Origin: Picocystis sp. L7
Taxonomy: Eukaryota; Chlorophyta; Picocystophyceae; Picocystales; Picocystaceae
Assembly (NCBI GenBank): GCA_020975725.1
Contig: QXJR01000023.1
Span: 62,001 to 126,000, forward strand
Direction of reading: 5' to 3'
Length of the DNA stretch: 64,000 nt
Shown: positions 1-62,900 of the stretch, piece after piece
Layout of the letters: each line of letters begins with the position of its first letter
Position numbering within the stretch: the first letter of the stretch is position 1
Position numbers and translations under genes: made by a program
The notes under the pieces: generated by a model
Databases searched by the model: none
What the model was told of the DNA's origin: nothing
What the model saw: only the letters and a program-made list of their open reading frames with translations

Positions 1-1593
1 TGCAACCATCCAGCAACCATCCAGCAGATTTCTGCAACCAGCGAGAAACCATCCAGCAGATTTCTGCAACCTTCTAGCAACCAACCAGCAGATTTCTGCA
101 ACCATCCAGCAACCATCCAGCAGATTTCTGCAACCAGCGAGAAACCATCCAGCAGATTTCTGCAACCAGCGAGAAACCATCCAGCAGATTTCTGCAACCA
201 GCGAGAAACCATCCAGCAGATTTCTGCAACTATCCAGCAACCATCCAGCAGATTTCTGCAACCAGCGAGAAACCATCCAGCAGATTTCTGCAACCAGCGA
301 GAAACCATCCAGCAGATTTCTGCAACCAGCGAGAAACCATCCAGCAGATTTCTGCAACCAGCGAGAAACCATCCAGCAGATTTCTGCAACCTTCCAGCAA
401 CCAACCAGCAGATTTCTGCAACCATCCAGCAACCATCCAGCAGATTTCTGCAACCAGCGAGAAACCATCCAGCAGATTTCTGCAACCTTCCAGCAACCAA
501 CCAGCAGATTTCTGCAACTATCCAGCAACCATCCAGCAGATTTCTGCAACCAGCGAGAAACCATCCAGCAGATTTCTGCAACCAGCGAGAAACCATCCAG
601 CAGATTTCTGCAACCAGCGAGAAACCATCCAGCAGATTTCTGCAACCTTCCAGCAACCAACCAGCAGATTTCTGCAACCATCCAGCAACCATCCAGCAGA
701 TTTCTGCAACCAGCGAGAAACCATCCAGCAGATTTCTGCAACCTTCTAGCAACCAACCAGCAGATTTCTGCAACCATCCAGCAACCATCCAGCAGATTTC
801 TGCAACCAGCGAGAAACCATCCAGCAGATTTCTGCAACCAGCGAGAAACCATCCAGCAGATTTCTGCAACCAGCGAGAAACCATCCAGCAGATTTCTGCA
901 ACTATCCAGCAACCATCCAGCAGATTTCTGCAACCAGCGAGAAACCATCCAGCAGATTTCTGCAACCAGCGAGAAACCATCCAGCAGATTTCTGCAACCA
1001 GCGAGAAACCATCCAGCAGATTTCTGCAACCAGCGAGAAACCATCCAGCAGATTTCTGCAACCTTCCAGCAACCAACCAGCAGATTTCTGCAACCATCCA
1101 GCAACCATCCAGCAGATTTCTGCAACCAGCGAGAAACCATCCAGCAGATTTCTGCAACCTTCCAGCAACCAACCAGCAGATTTCTGCAACCATCCAGCAA
1201 CCATCCAGCAGATTTCTGCAACCAGCGAGAAACCATCCAGCAGATTTCTGCAACTATCCAGCAACCATCCAGCAGATTTCTGCAACCAGCGAGAAACCAT
1301 CCAGCAGATTTCTGCAACCAGCGAGAAACCATCCAGCAGATTTCTGCAACCAGCGAGAAACCATCCAGCAGATTTCTGCAACCAGCGAGAAACCATCCAG
1401 CAGATTTCTGCAACCAGCGAGAAACCATCCAGCAGATTTCTGCAACCTTCCAGCAACCAACCAGCAGATTTCTGCAACCATCCAGCAACCATCCAGCAGA
1501 TTTCTGCAACCAGCGAGAAACCATCCAGCAGATTTCTGCAACCTTCCAGCAACCATCCAGCAGACTTTTGCAACCGTCCAGATAATTTTTGCA
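1..1593. repeat. 32-bp tandem minisatellite array, truncated at window start
   Basis: About fifty head-to-tail units with a 32-bp period run from base 1 to about 1590. Each unit has an 18-bp constant core (CCAGCAGATTTCTGCAAC) followed by a 14-bp variable half with four main forms. The most common form contains CAGCGAGAAACCAT; the others contain CATCCAGCAACCAT, TATCCAGCAACCAT or CTTCCAGCAACCAA. The last two units, near 1557-1600, are degenerate and mark the right edge. The left edge lies outside the window. Because 32 is not a multiple of 3, long minus-strand reading frames across the array are a by-product of the repeat, not genes. Confidence 0.97.
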
Positions 1594-1611
1594 AGGAGCG
1601 AGAGATGACTC

Positions 1612-2802
1612 TCATGGCTCTGATGCAGATGACACATCTACATGCGCAGCAAACTTCGCCTTGTATTGACTCATAGATGGAGGCTGCATCTCGAAGAACC
1701 TATTCGCAACGCCTCCGTATGCACAAGTGTGGAAGTTAGTCAACATTGCCGCTACCCAGTCCTCCATACCTGTTGCTCGCGAACCTGTAACCTTCCTCGT
1801 CTTGTCAGTAATGAAGGGCCATATGTTCCCAAGCTTTCCAAACACCCACTCCACACTTTCACGGTATCGAGACATGTCCCGCGCCAGCATGCGTTCTGAG
1901 CGTGTGATCCTGTTTCCTTTTGGAGCGCGTAGGAGGACGTCACACTGTGGATAAGCTGAATCACCATACATGTACAGCGTGCTACCAAAACGATCGCGCA
2001 TCCCCTGCAACCTCGGAATCAATCTAGAGTCATCCAACATCACCGAGTCGTTCGTTCGGCCACTTGCCGGTCCATGCCAATCACCAATCAAAAAATTAGG
2101 CAACACCACGCATTGGTATTTCGTTTTGTGCCCTCGCTTCCATCCGTTGTACATGCTTTCCTGGTCAATGATGGGACGACATATGTCAAACATCGTCCCA
2201 TCAATGAACCCAAAACAATGAGGCAACGGACATCCCTGTTCCCGTAATGCATGCGCGAAAGCTGCCAACTCGTCCTCCCATAGCTCTAAACGCATTGATA
2301 CTCTTGCGATCCTGTACACGTGACGAAGGATCACGTTGTACATCTCGGACAGGGCAGGAGGTGAACGATCGAAGATCGTGGCCAAGTGTGTCAGGGTTTC
2401 CCGTCCCGCTAGTCTGCGCAACAAGAGAAGGAACGCTTCTTCTCCCTTGAAAACACGTCCACAAGTAGGACTCCGCAACCGCTCGGGGATCTCTAACAAG
2501 CGGATAAGCTCCCGAATGTGACCACGATCAAAACGAAAGTTCCCACGCAACGTAGCGTCCTCGAAATCGTCCAGCCAACGCGCGTTGTTCGAAATAGCAA
2601 CCCGAGGATTCCAGCGTTGCTTCATCTGACGCAGCAAGCGTTGGCAACGCAGGACCACCATTGCAAAAGCAGACGAGAGTGCAATCGACAGCTCCGGATG
2701 GTTAGGGAACGCGACGAGCATTGCCTCCCGCATCCGCAAGCTCTTCTCCCGCATCTCCTCCGTCTGGATGATCTGGAGCACTCGACCATACCTTTGAGGC
2801 AT
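1612..2802 (-). CDS. PIF/Harbinger-like DDE transposase
   Basis: This is a complete 396-residue reading frame starting at an ATG. The C-terminal half has the layout of the DDE_Tnp_4 nuclease seen in PIF/Harbinger transposases. The first Asp is in GFIDGT (about D201), the second in YGDSAYP (about D281), and the Glu is in ESVEWVFGKL (about E318). A conserved YNGWKRGHKTKYQ block lies between the first two. The N-terminal part is helical and basic, as expected for the DNA-binding half. No stop interrupts the frame and no intron is needed, so the enzyme may still be functional. I found no convincing terminal inverted repeats: the 32-bp array lies just downstream of the stop and may hide or replace one end. 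No Myb-like partner gene is seen beside it. It resembles the second transposase (7427-8903) only at motif level, so the two belong to different Harbinger lineages. Confidence 0.9.
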   Translation of the reverse strand: MPQRYGRVLQIIQTEEMREKSLRMREAMLVAFPNHPELSIALSSAFAMVVLRCQRLLRQMKQRWNPRVAISNNARWLDDFEDATLRGNFRFDRGHIRELIRLLEIPERLRSPTCGRVFKGEEAFLLLLRRLAGRETLTHLATIFDRSPPALSEMYNVILRHVYRIARVSMRLELWEDELAAFAHALREQGCPLPHCFGFIDGTMFDICRPIIDQESMYNGWKRGHKTKYQCVVLPNFLIGDWHGPASGRTNDSVMLDDSRLIPRLQGMRDRFGSTLYMYGDSAYPQCDVLLRAPKGNRITRSERMLARDMSRYRESVEWVFGKLGNIWPFITDKTRKVTGSRATGMEDWVAAMLTNFHTCAYGGVANRFFEMQPPSMSQYKAKFAAHVDVSSASEP

Positions 2803-3747
2803 CGTGCTCGGCGTTGTTTGCTTCCCGCGTTCCTCGAGGCGAATGTATACCGCGGAGGATCCTCTAGGTTTCGGTCGAGGCTGACCGTCCGACGAAATCC
2901 TCTGCGCATCTGTTTTTTAGGATCCCATACTGGACCAATCCGTAGGCTTTCTCATCCCCCAACTGTACGAGATGCGTAGAGGACGCAAGGTTTCATCCGC
3001 CGAAAACCCCACGATTTCGTCCGGTTTTGGCTCGACGGAGGATCCCCAAATCCGGGTTTAGGGATTTTTTTTGGTTAAAAACCCTCCGAAGTTGTTCGTC
3101 GGGGCAAATCCGAAGTCCTCTATTGGAAGGGGATCCGAAGGAAAGCTCGTGGTCCGAATCGCCTTTCCCCGTGTCGTCGTCCTCTTTTGGTTCGAAAGGG
3201 GGATGGATGGTGGATCGCCGTTCCTTCGCATCCGATTCGCGAACGCCAACACGCACCAGCAATGGGACCATTCGCGCATCGGGTTGCTCGTTCGCGGGAC
3301 GCGTCTCGACGGAACCCGCGATCGGGCGGTTCGGGTCTCTTGCACGCTCGTGCATCCCGCACCGCGGCGATGCTCTCCCGCGCCTCTCTGCCAATCACGT
3401 CCAAACACACCCCTGGATCACGTCCGGTGGTTGCAACGTCACCCTCGGGTGCGTGTCTCACCCCCTAAACCTTTCCTCCGAAGCACCGGGATGACCCCGT
3501 CTCGTCCATCCCTCCTGTCCCTTCGGGGTCGGAGAATATTCTCCCCTGCTGGGGGGTCGGTGCCTCGGACCCACCCCCCTCCGTTCTCTCGCACCCCCGG
3601 ATGCAGACACACCCAGGGACCAGCAGGGGGGGTCGGGACGGGCGACCGATGCAGACACACCCCCGATCGCAGACACACCCGGAGGGTGGTTGGGAGGGAA
3701 GGGTGCGTTGGGCGTGGTGTGGCGCGAACCGTGCTGGGCGCAGCACG
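2803..3747. other. Intergenic region, no gene seen
   Basis: This lies between the divergent transposase and the small spliced gene. Its reading frames overlap on both strands and resemble no protein. It contains a TTCGAAAGGGGG motif near 3191-3202, a T-rich run at 3065-3072, and C- and G-rich stretches with repeated CAGACACACCC near 3600-3680. It probably holds the promoter of the gene to the right. Confidence 0.6.
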
Positions 3748-5557: not shown

Positions 5558-7006
5558 TCACCCCCAACCGTGGTGGTGGAGGGCGTCGGACCAGGACCAG
5601 GCGTGAGGGAGGGGGAGGGACAGGCGCAGGCCTTGCAGACGCACGCGGGCGGGACCTTCCACCACCACGCGACAGCGGGCGATGCGTGCGTCCATGCTCG
5701 CGTGGAGCTTCAACAGGTCCCGGTGACGGGACTCGGACAGGACGAATGCGCGACCCACGTCCGTCAACGCCAACAGGACCGCCAAAGGGGAACGGAAACG
5801 ACGGTGCAGGCGTGCAGGAGACACCCGTACCAAGTGCTCGTCCCGTGCCAAGTGAGGGAAACAGACCGTGAACAGGTCGGGATCCGCACCCGATGGATCC
5901 TCCACGCGATCCAATACCGAACCAGATGCCGAAGAATCCGCGGCTTCCAACTCCTCCCATGTCACCCGGGGAACGGACTGGGTCAAGTCCGGAAGTGGAT
6001 GACTCTCCGCGAATTCCAGCTCCCATGCCGCCGGCGCAGGGTCCGAATCCGATGCCTCGATCGAAGGGGCCAACGCAGGAGCCTCCGTGCTGCGTAGGGT
6101 CGACCAATCGATCCCCGCGAAGAAAGGATGGCCCTTGAGCTCCTGGAGACCCTTGGGACCCGCGCCCAAACGTGCGGACGGTTCCGTCACCAACAATCCA
6201 AGCACCAGATCACGCGCGTCCTCGGAAAACCCGGGAGGGAAGGTCACCCGGTTCTCCCGGATGTTGCAAAAGGTCAGGTACTCCGAAGCGCCCGCGAAGG
6301 GCGTTTCTCCCACCAACAACTGGTACACGATGCAACCCAACGACCAGAGGTCGGTCTCGGGTGAGACGGACCTACCTTCCAGCACTTCCGGAGACACGTA
6401 ATCGGCCGTTCCCACGAAGGAGCTCCGCCTGCGTTCCCATCGCTTTGTCAAAGCCTGCACCAAGGGCAAGTCCGTGGACCTTGCGCTCCCGAAATCGATG
6501 AGCTTGAGGTGTCTTTCTGCGTCCAGGAGCAGGTTTTCCGGTTTGAGGTCCCGATGGACGACCCCTTGGTTCCTCAGGTATTCCAGGATCGTCACGATTT
6601 CTGCGGCGTAGTGTTTGGCGAAGGACGGATCCAGTTGGTTTTGTTCCTTCCTTTGGTAGATTTGGTCGAACAGCTCCCCGTGTGGACAGAGTTCGAGTCC
6701 CATGTACAGGTTGTGTTCGTCCTGGAAGGTGAAGAACAGCTTGGCGATGCCCGGGTGATCCATCCGATCGAGTATGTCTCGTTCTTCCTTGACTTGTCTT
6801 TGTTTCTTCTCTTTGGCGATGTGTCGTTTGAGCATCGTCTTCAAGGCCACCTTGCTCCCGTCGGCGCGCAGGGTGGCTTCGTAGACGGTGCTGTAGGATC
6901 CGTCTCCCAGCACTTTTCCCAGCAGGAAGTCTTCCACCTTGAGGTCCACCCTCGGTGCGTGCACTCCCTCCCCCCCGAACCGATCCCGCAGTGTGTGTTG
7001 GGCCAT
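5558..7006 (-). CDS. PDK1: 3-phosphoinositide-dependent protein kinase 1 (PDK1-like)
   Basis: The 482-residue product has an AGC-type kinase domain near the N-terminus. Visible motifs are the glycine loop GDGSYSTV (about 34-41), the catalytic Lys in VALK (K56), HRDLKPEN (151-158), a DFG motif in LIDFGSA (171-173), and the PDK1 activation segment SSFVGTADYVSPEVL (about 195-209). Ser196 there matches the autophosphorylated activation-loop Ser of PDK1. The C-terminal 120 residues look like the PH domain that binds 3-phosphoinositides, although they are divergent. The known role of the family is to phosphorylate the activation loop of other AGC kinases at membranes. The first ATG is at 7006; the frame is open upstream only through a GTG. 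The Harbinger element begins about 135 bp upstream, so it sits in or next to this promoter. Confidence 0.92.
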   Translation of the reverse strand: MAQHTLRDRFGGEGVHAPRVDLKVEDFLLGKVLGDGSYSTVYEATLRADGSKVALKTMLKRHIAKEKKQRQVKEERDILDRMDHPGIAKLFFTFQDEHNLYMGLELCPHGELFDQIYQRKEQNQLDPSFAKHYAAEIVTILEYLRNQGVVHRDLKPENLLLDAERHLKLIDFGSARSTDLPLVQALTKRWERRRSSFVGTADYVSPEVLEGRSVSPETDLWSLGCIVYQLLVGETPFAGASEYLTFCNIRENRVTFPPGFSEDARDLVLGLLVTEPSARLGAGPKGLQELKGHPFFAGIDWSTLRSTEAPALAPSIEASDSDPAPAAWELEFAESHPLPDLTQSVPRVTWEELEAADSSASGSVLDRVEDPSGADPDLFTVCFPHLARDEHLVRVSPARLHRRFRSPLAVLLALTDVGRAFVLSESRHRDLLKLHASMDARIARCRVVVEGPARVRLQGLRLSLPLPHAWSWSDALHHHGWG

Positions 7007-7141
7007 GGCGGTCCACCACCGTCTCGTTCCCCTTCGATCTCCCACACCCGTGTGGGTCCTCCTTCACTCCCCTTTCCCCGAAGCCAAGGGACCTCGAGGG
7101 GGGGATGGGTCCCTCCCCCTGTCTTCCCCCTCCCACACGAG

Positions 7142-7159
7142 AGCCCTATTCACATGTCA
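7142..7159 (+). repeat. Left terminal inverted repeat of the Harbinger element
   Basis: AGCCCTATTCACATGTCA, matched exactly in inverse orientation at 10998-11015. It is preceded by GAG and followed by a G- and A-rich subterminal stretch that loosely resembles the one at the right end. Confidence 0.85.
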
Positions 7160-7426
7160 AGGACCGAGGGGAATCGGGGGGAGGGGGAAGGGTTCTGGGC
7201 ATTCACAGGTAACATTTGACCCGGATGGCGAACCGAGTTCGTGAACCGAATATTCGATGGAATTCTCGAGGGAGGTGGACGTGTGCCTCGGATCCATCCG
7301 AGTCCGGAGGACCTCGCGCCTGTCTACCACGTACGAGGGGAGTGACTAGTGGTTTCTGCGTTTAGGGTTGTCGCAGATTTGCGGAAGACGAACAACAAGG
7401 CGGCGCTCTTCCCAGGCACAGCACGC

Positions 7427-8903
7427 ATGGATGGTGCCGAACGCGAACAAATGGGGGATGCGGGTTTGGGAGAGGGAGCCTTCCGTGCATGGACGAGCAT
7501 GAGGGCGACGAGGATGGAGAGGGACGACGTCGAACGACGCAAACGAACACGCGAAAGGTTGGTGCTGCTCAACCATGTGATAGAAGCAACTGTTGCATGT
7601 ACTGAGGTAGCCCAGCATCTTGCGAGGAGGCTCGTCTTTGCGCAAGGAGGTTACGGGAGGGGCCGCGCATGTTGGAAGGAGAGGAGGGCGCAGAACAACT
7701 TTTACGAGTTGTTCAGCGAACGAACGACGGATGTCGCCTTCAAGCGGCTCTTGCGGATGAGTAAGGAGAGCTTTCGAGTCTTATTACGTCTAGTACGTAG
7801 AGACTTGCAGCCAGCTGCAAATGCTAGGGGGGACTTCATGTCACCAAAGCGGACTCTCACTCTCACTCTCATGCGTCTGGCCCATGGAACAAGTTACTTG
7901 AAACTGAGTGAGAGCTTCGCCATTGGCATTTCCACTGCCCACAAATGCTACACAAGGGGGATAGTAGCCATTTGCAAAATGCAGGACCGTTTTATACGAA
8001 TGCCCACCACCCGTGCAGAAATTGAGGCGTGCATTCAGAGTTTTTCCCGGAGAGGATTTCCGAATGCTTGCCTTGCTGTGGATGGATGTCACGTGAAAGT
8101 GGAGTTGGCTGACCAAAACCTTGGACTGCAGGATTTCATATGTTATAAAGGGTTCTACTCCCTTAATAATATGGCGTACGTAGATGGAAGTGGGATGTTC
8201 AGGGCTGTTTTATGTGGTTGGGCAGGTTCATCTGCAGATGGTGGGGTTATCAAAGAAATGGAGTTCACGAAGCTTCTACAGGTAGGTGACACACAACGAC
8301 GGGACGACAATGTGCTGCATCGACTACCACTGACTATGCGTGCCTTTTGATTGTTCTGCTTCCTCTCATCATTTACAGAATGGTTTGCTACTGCAATATC
8401 CGACGCTCTACAAGGACTTGGAGTATTTGGACAGAATGGGGCACCTCGCAACATTGCATGTCCCACCTTTGGTTCTCGCAGATTCTGCATTCGGGATGGA
8501 GACGTGGCAGATGACCCCCTACAAAGGAGATAATTTGGCAGCGACAAGTGCAGAAAGGAGGTTCAATTGGATCCACAGTTCAGCTAGGGTGGTTGTTGAG
8601 CATGCATTTGGTCGATTGAAAGGCAGGTTCAGATTGCTATTGGGGACCCACAGAACGGCATGGAGAACCTGTGCACAGTCTATCCTTGCAGCAATGGTGT
8701 TGCACAACTTTCTTGGGCAGGAGGGCGATGCCTTCATGCAGGAATGGGCAGAAGGGGTTGTGGAGTTGGGGGATCGAGATGGGGTACAACCTCAAGAAGC
8801 AGTGGCTCAAGACATGTTGGAGAGTGCGGTGCAGATCAAACAGGGGCTGACCGATTTCTTTTTTCAACAGGAGCGACCAGTCCGTAGACCAAGGAACAGG
8901 TAG
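7427..8903 (+). CDS. PIF/Harbinger transposase, two exons
   Basis: The exons are 7427-8281 and 8379-8903. They are joined in phase 0 across a 97-bp intron with donor CAG/GTAGGT and acceptor TTTACAG, giving 459 residues. A helix-turn-helix segment (about 142-180, RTLTLTLMRLAHGTSYLKLS) precedes the DDE nuclease. The catalytic residues are D219 in LAVDGCHVKVE, D320 in LVLADSAFG and E359 in VVEHAFGRLKGRFR. Only the first Asp is in exon 1, so the intron must be removed for activity. The first ATG is used; the frame is open upstream to a GTG at 7349. No inactivating change is visible. The partner gene on the other strand ends 54 bp downstream. Confidence 0.93.
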
Positions 8904-8957
8904 AATCTTAACACGCAGGTAGGTTGCTGGATGCAAATTGGGCATGGTATGATAACA

Positions 8958-10468
8958 TCACGGTTGACATGTTTGCCTTAGTGACTCTTGCCAAGACAAG
9001 GCTTCTTGTATAGCTTCTGCCTTGGAGGGCCGTGGTCCAAGCTGCTGGATGATGACATCTTGTGGGACTTGTTGGGTGCAGTAAAATGCAAACAATTCAT
9101 CCCAATCCCTCTGTATTTTCTGAGCACGCTCAATCACGAGCTTCTCAGAATCTGATGTCTGAAGTTGCTTGTGCATCTCGGTAATAGATGTTTTGATAGT
9201 TCCAAGAGTTTCATTGACTGTACTTGACTGCTCCAGCATGGATGAGAGCATCTCCTCATGTCGTCGGTCAGCACTACTTGGTCGTCTTCCTTTCTTCGAT
9301 GCAGGCATCCGTGGACGCTGTGGGCTGTCGGCCTCGTCATCACGTGCTGACCGTTTGTTGCGTTCGTTCTCACAGGTTTTGTATGTGGTAGGACTGGCAT
9401 CGTTGGATAGAATGTCCGTGAACGGTGCATCGTCCTGTCCATCACCATGCACGCCACCCATCGGTGCTTTGTCAGAATTGTCAAATGGAGCCCGTGTCTG
9501 CAAGACAATGCCTGCTGGTGGGCATACGGATGGCTTGTTGCGCAGGACTTGCTGCATCTCGTCGAAGAAGATCCAGTCGATGTCGTCCAATTGCTGCTCA
9601 CCAGTGCAATTGGCTTGTTTGGTGACGACGTTGCCCTCTTCGTCCACAGTTGTAACTGTTCTGCGCTTCTTTTCCTTGTATACCTCTTGCAGGTACTTCC
9701 ATTTCTCCGTTCCCTTTGCCTTGAACACTTCCTCTAGGTATGCGTCCTTGTCGACGTTGTGTTCGACGCAAAATTCATCGAACAGTGGACCGCCACGAAT
9801 GAACCAAGGAGCGCTTTCGCCAAGTTTGCCGCACATTGCTTGCCTCACCTTTCGCCAGCCAACATCCATGTGCTTCCCTTTCGACACGTCGAATTCTCCA
9901 GCCAGTTCTAGACCTCTCAATTTGATGAAGGCCGACGTCCATTCATTTTCCCAAACAGCGCGCACTTTGAAAGTGACTCCCTTCGGAGGCCGCATGCGCA
10001 ACTTGGAGCCCAGTTGTGCGCTGTCGAACGAAAGACTAGATGTCGAACGGAGCATTCGACCAATGCACGGTCAGTTCAACGTGTCACAGGAGATGACAGT
10101 ACGCGTGTTAAAGGCAAAAATTCGACTTACTCGACTCTATCACCATGTTGACATGGGAAACACACGATCGCAGGTGCGACCACTTGGGACGCTGTGTCTC
10201 CCACGACAGTAGGAGGCGAAGGGCAGGCGGGCGTGGGATCCTTCGAAGTTCCATCTTCTGTAGTCATACCGTACGGAGTTCGCTCGTCTCGAATGTGTTC
10301 GTCGCATGAAGAGTGGAAGCGTCGTCCGCAAACTCCGCATTGGATGCACTCCTCCTGTCGCTTGCTAACGCATTCTAGCGCCGTTGCGAGCTCTGATCCA
10401 CCGATGCGGATGATCACTTTCCCTCTCAGTCGGTAGAAGCAGGACGACGCAGCTTGCGTCGCAGGCAT
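8958..10468 (-). CDS. Harbinger accessory protein: PHD-type zinc finger plus Myb/SANT-like domain, two exons
   Basis: The exons are 10468-10131 and 10020-8958, joined across a 110-bp intron. The donor is GTAAGT and the acceptor is TTCGACAG; the spliced codon is Asp. The product is 466 residues. Exon 1 encodes a zinc-binding pattern, C-x2-C-x4-H-x2-C (CGVCGRRFHSSC), followed by a final C-x2-C (CFPC) about 45 residues later. This matches the second half of a PHD finger. Exon 2 begins with a Trp-rich helical block (WENEWTSAFIKLRGLELAGE, then VGWRKVRQAMCGKL) like the divergent Myb/SANT domains of Harbinger ORF2 proteins. A nuclear-localisation-like basic run and a coiled coil follow. In the family, the Myb-like protein brings the transposase into the nucleus and to the element ends. 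ATG 10468 is the first ATG, but exon 1 is open upstream to a TTG at 10540. Confidence 0.75.
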
Positions 10469-10997
10469 TGTTGGGTCGATGGGCACAGATAGCCTGTCTT
10501 TCGTTGTTTCGAACGCGATCGTCGCGCGCGCTTGCGTCAAACCTGTCTGCGCCCCTCAAACTCGGAGGATCTTTCGCATGACGCTCCTCCACGGGTATCG
10601 CGGTTCGGAAACCGTACCTGTCCCTCAAACCCTGTATCATTTTCGAGACCGAATCGTGTACCGCCATTCCCCGTTTCCCCGAGGTTTCCCTGCTTCCCCC
10701 TAGGTCCAAAATCCTCTGCGTGTTACGTTTTCCCTTCGTAGGTGCCCTCCCTCAAAATCTCTTCGTGAAGGGTCCCATTTCAGGTCCCTTGCCACCCCCC
10801 GTGGTTCCCTGGTCCCCCGGGTCCGGGGCCGGTGGGAAGCGGGAATTCCCTCAACGGGGAGCCTCGTTTTTCGATCGCCCCGGAAGGGATGTTTGGGTTT
10901 TATTTACGAAATATTCGCACGAATGCGTGGAGGAAACCTCGGGGGATCATTTGGCTTCCCCGGCTTCCCCGCTTCCCCTTCTTCCCCCGAGGTCGGG

Positions 10998-11015
10998 TGA
11001 CATGTGAATAGGGCT
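10998..11015 (-). repeat. Right terminal inverted repeat of the Harbinger element
   Basis: TGACATGTGAATAGGGCT, the exact reverse complement of 7142-7159, followed directly by GAG, which matches the trinucleotide before the left repeat. Confidence 0.85.
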
Positions 11016-11289
11016 GAGGGGTGGGAGAGACCGGGGGAGAGGGGACGAGGGAACAGGTAGCACGAGGACGAGGGACGAACGAGGGGAGGGGGTGGGGAGG
11101 GAGGGAAATAAAGGAATGCAAACACGTCCCTACCATCGAATCGAAGGACCCACGTCGAACAGGAACGGATCCTCAAACCTACCTGTACGCAAGCACGAGG
11201 TGCAGCAGGGTGAAAGCACGCCCGTCCCATCCCGTGCTTCCGAAACCGAGGTCCTGCCAAGGGGTCGCAATCGACCCAACCACAAGGGA

Positions 11290-12020
11290 TCATGCCTGGA
11301 CGGCAAACTTGCGTGGAGGGAAATACTTGTCCTTCTTCGTCTGCTTCAGCGTCTTGGCACCCAGCTGTGCCTTGGTCAACCGACGACGGATGGCACGGGT
11401 CTTCTTCGGCCGGAGATCCAACGGAAGGTACTTCTTGCCCTTGTACACCTCGCGGAGCGCTTGCTTCTTCTGCTGGGACATGACCGTCAAGACGCGTGCG
11501 ATTCCCAACCGGACATCTTTGATCTTGGACAGCTTGTTCGGAGCACCGTTCGTCACCTTGGCCACCCGCAGTGCGTTGAGCTCTGCCTTGAGTTCCTTGA
11601 GCTGGGTTTCCAGGTCCGCCTTGGACTTGGTGCGCAGCTCGTACGCCTTGGTCGATACTGGTGTCGAAGGTCGAGGTTCGTCGCGCATCGCATCGATCGC
11701 GCGAGCAGGAAGGGTCAGCGCGTCGCACGAAGCGGTAGAGACGCGTGCGTTTCCTGGCCGCAGAACCCTAAGGACGGAGCTCGATTCCCGTCCGTTCGCG
11801 ATCTGGATCCCCCTCCCGGCGTCCTTCTGCGTTTCTTTTCTTTCGAGGCACCCTTCCTCCTCGTCCGCGTCCCTCTCCTTCGTTCCCGTTCGCCATGGCG
11901 TTGGAATCCAGGGGTTTCGAAGCCGCGTGTCCACGACGTCGTTCCATCCTCGTCTCGCGCAGGATCCACGCGCTCCTCGTTTCCACGTCTCCCATCCTCT
12001 TTTTCCTCGTTCCTACCCAT
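11290..12020 (-). CDS. RPL35: Cytosolic large-subunit ribosomal protein L35 (uL29)
   Basis: The main exon (11657-11290) encodes the whole conserved protein, from [16 protein letters not shown] through [20 protein letters not shown] to [19 protein letters not shown]. uL29 binds 23S/28S rRNA near the peptide exit tunnel. The start is the only doubt. A first exon of just four bases (ATG G, 12020-12017), followed by GTAGGA and joined to the CACCAG acceptor ending at 11658, gives [10 protein letters not shown] and exactly 123 residues, the usual length of eukaryotic L35. It implies a 359-bp intron. The alternative is an unspliced start at ATG 11688 with nine extra residues (MRDEPRPST). The gene faces the Harbinger element downstream and diverges from EMC7. 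Confidence 0.88.
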
Positions 12021-59911: not shown

Positions 59912-62900
59912 ATGGAACACAGCGGTGGAAACACAGGAATGGTGGTGGGAAGCCTCGTCGTGGCGTTCCTACTGCTTGGATTCGTGGCCCTCGATCGAGC
60001 GGTTGAAAAGGCACTCCGATGGTGGCTGATAAGATATGTCGATGAGGAAAACAGGGATGGACTGGAAGTGCTTGTCGCTTCGAGGCTCAGACCGCTCCAA
60101 TTCGTTGTGCACATTAACAAACTCAGCGTGAAATTGGACAAACTTTTGCATCTGGAAGAACCGCTGAGCGGCCGTTTATCCATCCAATCCTTCAGGCTTG
60201 ATACCAGATTCACATGGGCATGTGATTGGAATCTCTTCAGAGGGCTTCGAGTCATTTTGCTACAAGCAGAATTGCATGGTGCAGAGGTGAGCATCGAGAC
60301 CAAATGTTTCCCGGAAGGAGGCGAGCAAAGCTTCTGGCGAAAGAGGAGGTTGGAATTCCAGGAATGCGAGCGCATGCTGCTGCACTGCAGGAGCTCACAC
60401 AGATATTGGAGAATCCTTGGTCCGTGTCTGGCCGTCTGCTTGCCTCGACTCGATCTGCATGCGAACATCATTTTCGTGGCAGAATCAAACTCACTTGTAT
60501 ACAGAAATGATGTAGGCGCGGACAATGAACCGTGCTGTTCTATGGACACCCAAGCAATATGCCATATTAAGTGTATCAGAGTCACGAATGCACGTGGATT
60601 ACGTTCTTCACCCCAAGGGTGTGCGTCTCGTCCTCAGGTGGTGGAGTTCCGAGTCTTGCAATTATCGATTGAAGTAGCTAATGAAAGCAAGCTTCGACTA
60701 CTGCGAATGGTGCGACACGTGGATATCAAAGGGGAGCTTGAGATATCTCCTTTTGAGAGGAACTCACCAACCTCTGCAGGGGTGGGACTCAACTTCGTTT
60801 TAGATACTAGCCCACTGGTGGTCCATCTAGACAAACCAGTCATGTCTGGTGCCCTCAAAGCCATTTGTGACTATGTAAGAAGCACAAGGTTGTGGCAGAT
60901 CCGGCATTTCAGGCCAACATTATCTGTGCAAGAGGAGCCAGAAGCTTGGTGGAGGTATGCTGTTCAAGCAGTTCTGCAGAGGTATAAAAACGATGGAAAA
61001 TACATACTTCCCTCGGGACCACAGTCGTATTGGGAAAGAGTCGCTATGGCCGCAGACTATCGCTCGCTGTACAAGAATGTTTTGATCCGCAGCCTTTGTC
61101 CTGTTTCGTTGCTCTCCAGCAAGGCACTAATCAATGAGTTGCATCTTCTGGAGCAAAAACTCCCTTTTGATTGTGTGCACGTAGCAAGGTATCGCGCCAT
61201 TCATGAGCTTCTGGGAACCTTTGCTGGTTACAGCATATTACTATTGTTTGCCGATATTCACCCATCATTCCATTCTGGCGCACCCATTCACTGCATCACA
61301 AGTAAACAGAAAACAGTTGTGCAGGCGAAACCCAGTTGGTATTGGTACTTGAGATCTGTCGACTGCAAAATCTCCAGGCTTGCATTCTTGGTGCAGGTTT
61401 CAAGACGCGTAGATTTCATTTCCGAACAAGAGTTGACCATTGTGTTTTCCCACTTGAGCTTGCGAATGCACAAGAAAAATAGTCATACAAACTATTCCTC
61501 AGTAATGTTTGATGATGTGTCCATGAAAAGCAGCGACGGATGTGGAGAGGGGCAAACAATTCTGGAGATTTCGCAAAGCGGTGAAAAGCTGGACAGCTCC
61601 TTGCTTGTGGTCCAAACTCTGTGCACAGAGTGTTGTTCAAGTGATGGTCTGTCAAGGGTTTGTATGGATGTGCAGGGGTTTCCGGCTGCTCTCACCCTTT
61701 CAAACACGTTGCTGGCTGCAAGCCAGGACATTGTGAATGTGACGAGAGATGTGTTTGTAGCTTTCAGTCTGCCACCCATGGAGCAAAGGAACAGCAGGCG
61801 CACCTTATTTCAGGTGGACTACACTTGTGATGGTGAAATCCGGTTCATGCTTCCTTGCAGAGAGAGCGATCCTGCATGGCTTGTCTTTCGCTGCCACCAA
61901 CCTAAAGCGTCATTCCGGAAAATCGGTGGTATTGGTCTTGTACACTCTGCAACGGTATGGGGTCAGGGAGGAGAGTTCATGCCAGCTTTCGTTGGCTTTC
62001 CTCCCATTTGCGGCTGGAGCGTCCACTCTCCACTGTCCACTATATTGCTCTGCACCACAGTTGGTGTGTCATTTTTAAGAGAGAGAGGAGAGGAGACGAA
62101 AAGTACCACCTTTCTTGAAAACGTTCGGATAAACGCCAGGACTCTTGCTCAAAACAGTAGGCCAGGATTGAAGACTGAGAAGCTGTGCTTTCATGGATTG
62201 AAGTTTTCGCCTTGCGGTGAGCAAGGAGTTTGGAATTTCGATTTGGGTTCGTGCTCTTCAAATGTTCACATTAGGATTCAACACGTGCTACTCAAAATCA
62301 GGCCAGATTTGCTGACAGCCCTTCATGATTGTGCATCAAACCTCTTCTTTCTGCTTACAGACTCAGCGCAGGTCAAGATGCCAGCAAAGCATCTTTCCAA
62401 GAAGCAAATGACAACCAGTGCGTTGGCCTCCTTCTCAATCTCTGTTGAAGCGAGCTCCTTTTCTGTAAGTTTTGCAGATGAAAATAGCCAGGACTTTTGT
62501 ATGTTACGGATTGTGAACATTCGAGCACAGAATCAGGTCCAGGGATCTCAGATACAATCAACAGCCGAAGCCGCAGGGGTATTTGTCGAAGGTGTTCCAG
62601 GTGCCCCAAGTTGTCTCCTTCGGCCGAATGAAGAGAGTTGCGGAGTAGCTCGGGATCTTTCTTTTGTCGGAAGGAAGACAAAACGAAGAAGGCCCCCTTC
62701 CCCATCAGGTAACAGAGGCCAGTTTTTAAGGATGTCTGTTACTGCAGACACGGGTCTTGTTTCGACCAAAGTCCAACTCGCTGGAATATGGCTGCTGGCG
62801 GACCCAAAGTTCCTCAAAATTCTCTTCGATGGGTGCTTTTTGTATCTAGATTTGTGCAGAGAATTGATTTCTAATTTGCTAGAATCTGTTACCACGCGGA

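Follow-up and report, generated by a model that had tools for sequence, protein, structure and literature searches.

Which kind of element lies just upstream of a PDK1-like kinase gene on contig QXJR01000023.1, and is the GAG found on both of its outer sides the sequence that its family targets? The stretch analysed, referred to here as the window, comprises 64,000 nucleotides (positions 62,001–126,000 of the contig). At window positions 7142–11015 is copy A, very probably an autonomous-looking cut-and-paste transposon of the PIF/Harbinger (PHIS) superfamily, whose family inserts at CWG, or loosely CNG, sites. An earlier interpretation made from the letters alone (here the sequence-only reading) had proposed a complete two-gene PIF/Harbinger element with GAG as its target type; the first proposal held and the second did not, GAG being used by one of ten two-ended copies only.

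The element in the window

Copy A and its parts are as follows (TIR, terminal inverted repeat).

7142–11015, + strand: whole transposon, copy A, 3874 bp, with perfect 18-bp TIRs, a 3-bp duplication and a second copy (B) of equal length
7142–7159, + strand: left TIR
10998–11015, − strand: right TIR
7139–7141, no strand: target site duplication GAG, left
11016–11018, no strand: target site duplication GAG, right
7427–8281, + strand: transposase exon 1, beginning of the DDE domain (DDE_Tnp_4, 4.2e-06; 100% identity to copy B)
8282–8378, + strand: transposase intron, GT..AG, phase 0 join
8379–8903, + strand: transposase exon 2, remainder of the DDE domain (DDE_Tnp_4, 9.4e-17)
10131–10468, − strand: partner exon 1, C4HC3 PHD-like segment, conserved in 8/8 aligned copies (weak Pfam PHD match in 5/8)
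10021–10130, − strand: partner intron, GT..AG, in-frame join
8958–10020, − strand: partner exon 2, Myb/SANT-like helical domain, disordered middle and C-terminal long helix (20-sequence alignment and model)

The two 18-mers form an exact inverted repeat, and with up to three mismatches allowed they are the only matches in the window (0.04 expected). Identity between the outer flanks ends after the 3 bp of the GAG. Enclosed by the ends are the convergent transposase and partner genes, whose spliced frames are both open and whose splice sites were read from the sequence; on the ends, the flanking GAG and the two open genes the sequence-only reading was borne out. Both transposase exons match DDE_Tnp_4 above the Pfam cut-off, and a match of exon 1 to HTH_Tnp_4 (0.0053) lies below it. 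Searches with exon 1 found no match by sequence in the PDB and no relative in one scan of viral contigs. A DDE_Tnp_4 transposase, TIRs and a short target duplication (3 bp in most groups), three features of PIF/Harbinger (PHIS) elements, are present, and for a fourth, a second protein with a Myb/SANT-type DNA-binding domain, the partner is a candidate; copy A is, judged from its sequence, a complete two-gene member of this superfamily with intact-looking frames.

The family and its target sites

Copies were searched for in one genome (20.5 Mb, 30 contigs), which holds six exact matches to the 18-mer. Two of these are the ends of copy A, so further copies end at this sequence, as would be expected of a mobile element. 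Ten two-ended copies, including A, were found (A, B, D, E, F, G, H, J, K1 and M), all with TIRs that start AGCC and with perfect TIR runs of 4 to 48 bp. A loose TIR pattern was discarded (416 control against 330 true matches).

Closest to A is copy B (C1:1216749–1220622), also of 3874 bp, with 56 substitutions and 0 indels; its transposase is 100% identical over residues 1–287 and differs at two amino acids over 459 codons. Open frames with few amino-acid changes are kept in both copies. Between their transposases, 6 synonymous and 2 nonsynonymous changes give a dN/dS of 0.09; on small counts, the value is 0.19 for partner exon 2 (10 synonymous, 7 nonsynonymous) and 0.54 for partner exon 1. 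Between element positions 185 and 894 are 709 bp free of differences, longer than expected (P = 0.00045; the remainder differs by ~1.8%), and this stretch hints at gene conversion between A and B.

The non-autonomous elements that the sequence-only reading suggested looking for exist as copies D and E, internally deleted derivatives of 961 bp each and 6 bases apart, which keep both ends and have lost the coding middle. As their remnant of partner exon 1 is only 59% identical to that of A, they probably derive from a relative of A rather than from A itself. The two-gene layout is kept in the more diverged F, G, H, J, K1 and M, with transposase identities of 55–62% per exon, and relatives of transposase and partner occur together in the genome copies. 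Some are broken: a stop interrupts transposase exon 1 of H, a copy that also houses another, nested DDE_Tnp_4 gene, and the partner of G is split across two frames. A related copy at C4:413306–422205 (L009, L013) is split near element position 46–52 by ~8 kb of other sequence and matches only to position 934.

In the transposase tree, whose hits carry no target-site labels, the family groups in a supported clade of its own; fish HARBI1 (P0033), the only hit that is a named animal protein, is 26% identical and lies outside it. Four EukProt hits bear the label 'Pavlova lutheri': the partner proteins P0039, P0043 and P0048, which are 100% identical over 350–356 residues to copies F, J and C3b, and the transposase P0019, at best 59% identical to the genome copies. 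Because three partner proteins are fully identical, the EukProt dataset probably represents the present genome or one very close to it. The label was not taken as taxonomy: for an RsmB-type host protein of the window, the best named rows are Coccomyxa (43%), with no haptophyte among the named rows in the best 120 of 7974 above threshold.

A perfect 3-bp duplication flanks all ten two-ended copies (chance 0.018 per copy). The duplicated sequence is CTG in F, H, J and M, CAG in D, G and K1, CGG in B, CCG in E and GAG in A, which amounts to CWG in 7/10 (P ~6e-9, from window trinucleotide frequencies), CNG in 9/10 and TWA in none. Counting both strands, the left-hand flank is rich in C and the right-hand flank in G. 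The family inserts at CWG and, more loosely, at CNG; given this preference across copies, the GAG of copy A, which the sequence-only reading had taken as the target type, is an exception, an off-consensus insertion.

Five single-end loci, at which the other end is unreadable, were left out of this count. They carry CAG at C4:413306 and C8:718613, CTA at C4:1206997 (region C4:1206985–1206997), and TAG at C3:675690 (one mismatch in the end) and C21:465312; TAG or CTA at these three single ends of relatives may reflect another target preference or decay. Also left out was C14:3011–8364 (L053, L054), near a contig end, where both ends and their flanks (CAG/CTG) are inverted copies of each other, forming a large palindrome that is either genuine or an assembly artefact.

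In the most likely mechanism, drawn by analogy with the superfamily, the Myb/SANT-like domain of the partner would bind the ends of the element and the partner would recruit the transposase, which would cut at the TIR ends and join them to the target. A cut with a 3-base stagger at the centre of a C-rich/G-rich palindrome, approximately CCC[CWG]GGG, would then yield the 3-bp duplication, and copy A would have entered at GAG. On the same analogy, the 961-bp derivatives could be mobilised and the family may be active at present.

CWG targeting itself is already known from NuwaI, which the PHIS survey defines by a CWG target duplication (PMC4482050). That the preference arose independently here, in another PIF/Harbinger lineage, is an explanation to which we incline slightly: the TIR start differs from that of NuwaI and the family has a clade of its own, though in a tree that holds no labelled references. 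Zebrafish Harbinger3 also targets a CWG-centred palindrome, a likeness that an independent origin would make a coincidence.

Placement next to host genes and the partner protein

Copy A is flanked by two host frames, one on each side.

5558–7006, − strand: PDK1-like kinase gene (best PDB match PDK1, 6.8e-74), with its ATG at 7006, 135 bp from the element
11293–11934, − strand: ribosomal protein uL29-type frame (Pfam Ribosomal_L29, 8.6e-17)

The distance of about 135 bp to the PDK1-like start given by the sequence-only reading is correct, and the placement recurs in five further copies. In 6/10 copies a Pfam-recognised host gene starts just past the element and is oriented away from it, with the first ATG 23–191 bp off: PDK1-like at A (135 bp), CobW at B (55 bp), SDE2 at D (102 bp), TraB at E (23 bp), an ABC transporter at J (123 bp) and XPA_C at K1 (191 bp). 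These genes were sought among the long open frames, up to five per flank, beside the nine copies other than A; the Pfam scan covered 17 such frames and the two host frames beside A. Two frames each at G, H and M matched no Pfam family, and the sole frame scanned at F was its own transposase, so the flanks of F are effectively uncovered. On the opposite sides of B (Toprim) and D (SMC), genes also read away, with the first ATG more than 1.2 kb off, and uL29 at A and EDR2_C at E face the element with their 3′ ends.

As background, we took the 16 Pfam-recognised genes of the window: 3091 of 28433 non-coding positions (10.9%), and 11 of 104 CCWGG sites, are found no more than 200 bp upstream of the first ATG of one of them. 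Compared with this fraction of positions, six copies out of ten give P ~2e-4, at a threshold set after the distances were known; thresholds of 60–300 bp give P from 0.043 (at 60 bp) to 0.00023, removal of copy A gives 0.035 to 0.0013, and a doubled background gives 0.01.

The placement could instead be a matter of survival only, insertions into coding sequence having been lost and no targeting having taken place, and we give this explanation a little less than an even chance. Several points weigh on its side and against a preference for upstream sites: the background comes from a single window with few recognised genes, the distance threshold was chosen post hoc, P rises under the doubled background and the 60-bp threshold, and four copies gave no upstream gene, the effectively uncovered F among them. 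What speaks against survival as the whole explanation is that the control was already restricted to non-coding positions, of which about one in nine qualifies, against six copies in ten. The rice transposon mPing is known to favour sites upstream of genes.

A candidate for such guidance is the partner protein. In partner exon 1, seven of the eight expected C4HC3 ligand columns are invariant in 8/8 copies, and the eighth (C47) is kept in 7/8. Its first two Cys are separated by 22 residues, a longer spacing than in the canonical PHD. The Pfam PHD match, seen in five copies, is weak (best 0.0025; the window copy scores 15.6 bits where the cut-off is 24), and in one member RH_dom scores better (0.0013). 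The AlphaFold model of this exon is poor (pLDDT 63), and Foldseek returned nothing with it at E 0.001. Neither partner exon found anything convincing in the PDB by sequence; in one such search, 9/12 sub-threshold rows are what we take to be PHD-finger proteins, the top row (E 0.095) not among them. For partner exon 2, the six top structural neighbours are the DNA-binding domains of Sap1, Zeste and GT-1, and Foldseek alone gave no significant match. Partner exon 1 is conserved and PHD-like and is joined to a Myb/SANT-like exon, both assignments being weak by profile.

The PHD-like exon and the upstream placement together suggest chromatin-guided insertion. In its most specific form, which we consider unlikely, the partner would act as a bipartite tether, its PHD-like finger reading a promoter histone mark and its Myb/SANT-like domain holding the element ends, so steering a CWG transposon to C/G palindromes 20–200 bp upstream of start codons, in a chromatin-guided lineage outside animals. 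With these two features in one family, how PIF/Harbinger elements find promoters becomes directly testable, and the near-identical copies A and B, with their open frames, and the short derivatives lend themselves naturally to testing it.

Other Harbinger-type transposases and known systems

Harbinger-type transposases are abundant and diverse in the genome, with 90 DDE_Tnp_4 matches (exons counted apart) in its 20.5 Mb. Among them is a transposase pair at C12:474466 and C4:988933, with 472-aa open frames and 43% identity to the family of copy A. A second, very distant DDE_Tnp_4 element lies at window positions 1–3125, extending leftward to ~C21:60342, with a transposase frame at 1612–2802 (− strand), inverted ends of ~46–54 bp and a minisatellite of ~1.6 kb beside it. 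Its six genome copies, including that of the window, are ~100% identical over 1447–1526 bp, and for this reason it seems to have been active more recently than copy A. This neighbouring transposase had no match in a defence-gene library, which is uninformative for such a protein.

According to the PHIS survey, NuwaI was reported from 16 genomes, all animal, out of 836, its TIRs usually start GGG and measure 12–61 bp, and the PIF/Harbinger group sensu stricto has TWA targets (PMC4482050); the part of PMC12595863 available holds nothing on CWG. Measured against these descriptions, the present family resembles NuwaI in the CWG duplication of most copies, though not of copy A, the DDE transposase with a putative Myb/SANT-type partner, the short TIRs and the length of ~4 kb. 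It differs in its AGCC start, in a genome that is non-animal as far as protein labels indicate, in the weak HTH match of the transposase and the extra PHD-like exon of the partner, and in its use of CGG, CCG and GAG sites. With the group sensu stricto, as described there, it shares two genes, a DDE transposase, a TIR start of A or G and a length of ~4.1 kb, and differs in having no TWA duplication among its ten two-ended copies, seven of which are CWG.

True membership of the NuwaI clade, which would extend NuwaI beyond animals, whether through ancient origin or horizontal transfer, would account for the CWG sites, the two genes and a window TIR length within the published range. We think it possible but less than even: the TIR start is not the usual GGG in any copy, the published set is of animals only, and the tree, in which fish HARBI1 falls outside the family's clade, contains no labelled NuwaI transposases. 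Since the TIR start disagrees with NuwaI and the tree is one of unlabelled hits, we do not file the element under NuwaI.

HARBI1 is a vertebrate Harbinger-derived single host gene without TIRs, unlike the present element, to which it is related through the DDE_Tnp_4 family at the identity given above. A domesticated pair of host genes, which open frames and few amino-acid changes could indicate, is extremely improbable in view of the perfect TIRs, the target duplications, the copies at unrelated loci and the internally deleted derivatives.

Copy A, an element of known kind, has unusual features and lies in a genome of non-animal appearance. If its affinities are confirmed, CWG-targeting relatives of Harbinger are not confined to animals, contrary to the picture drawn in the 836-genome survey.
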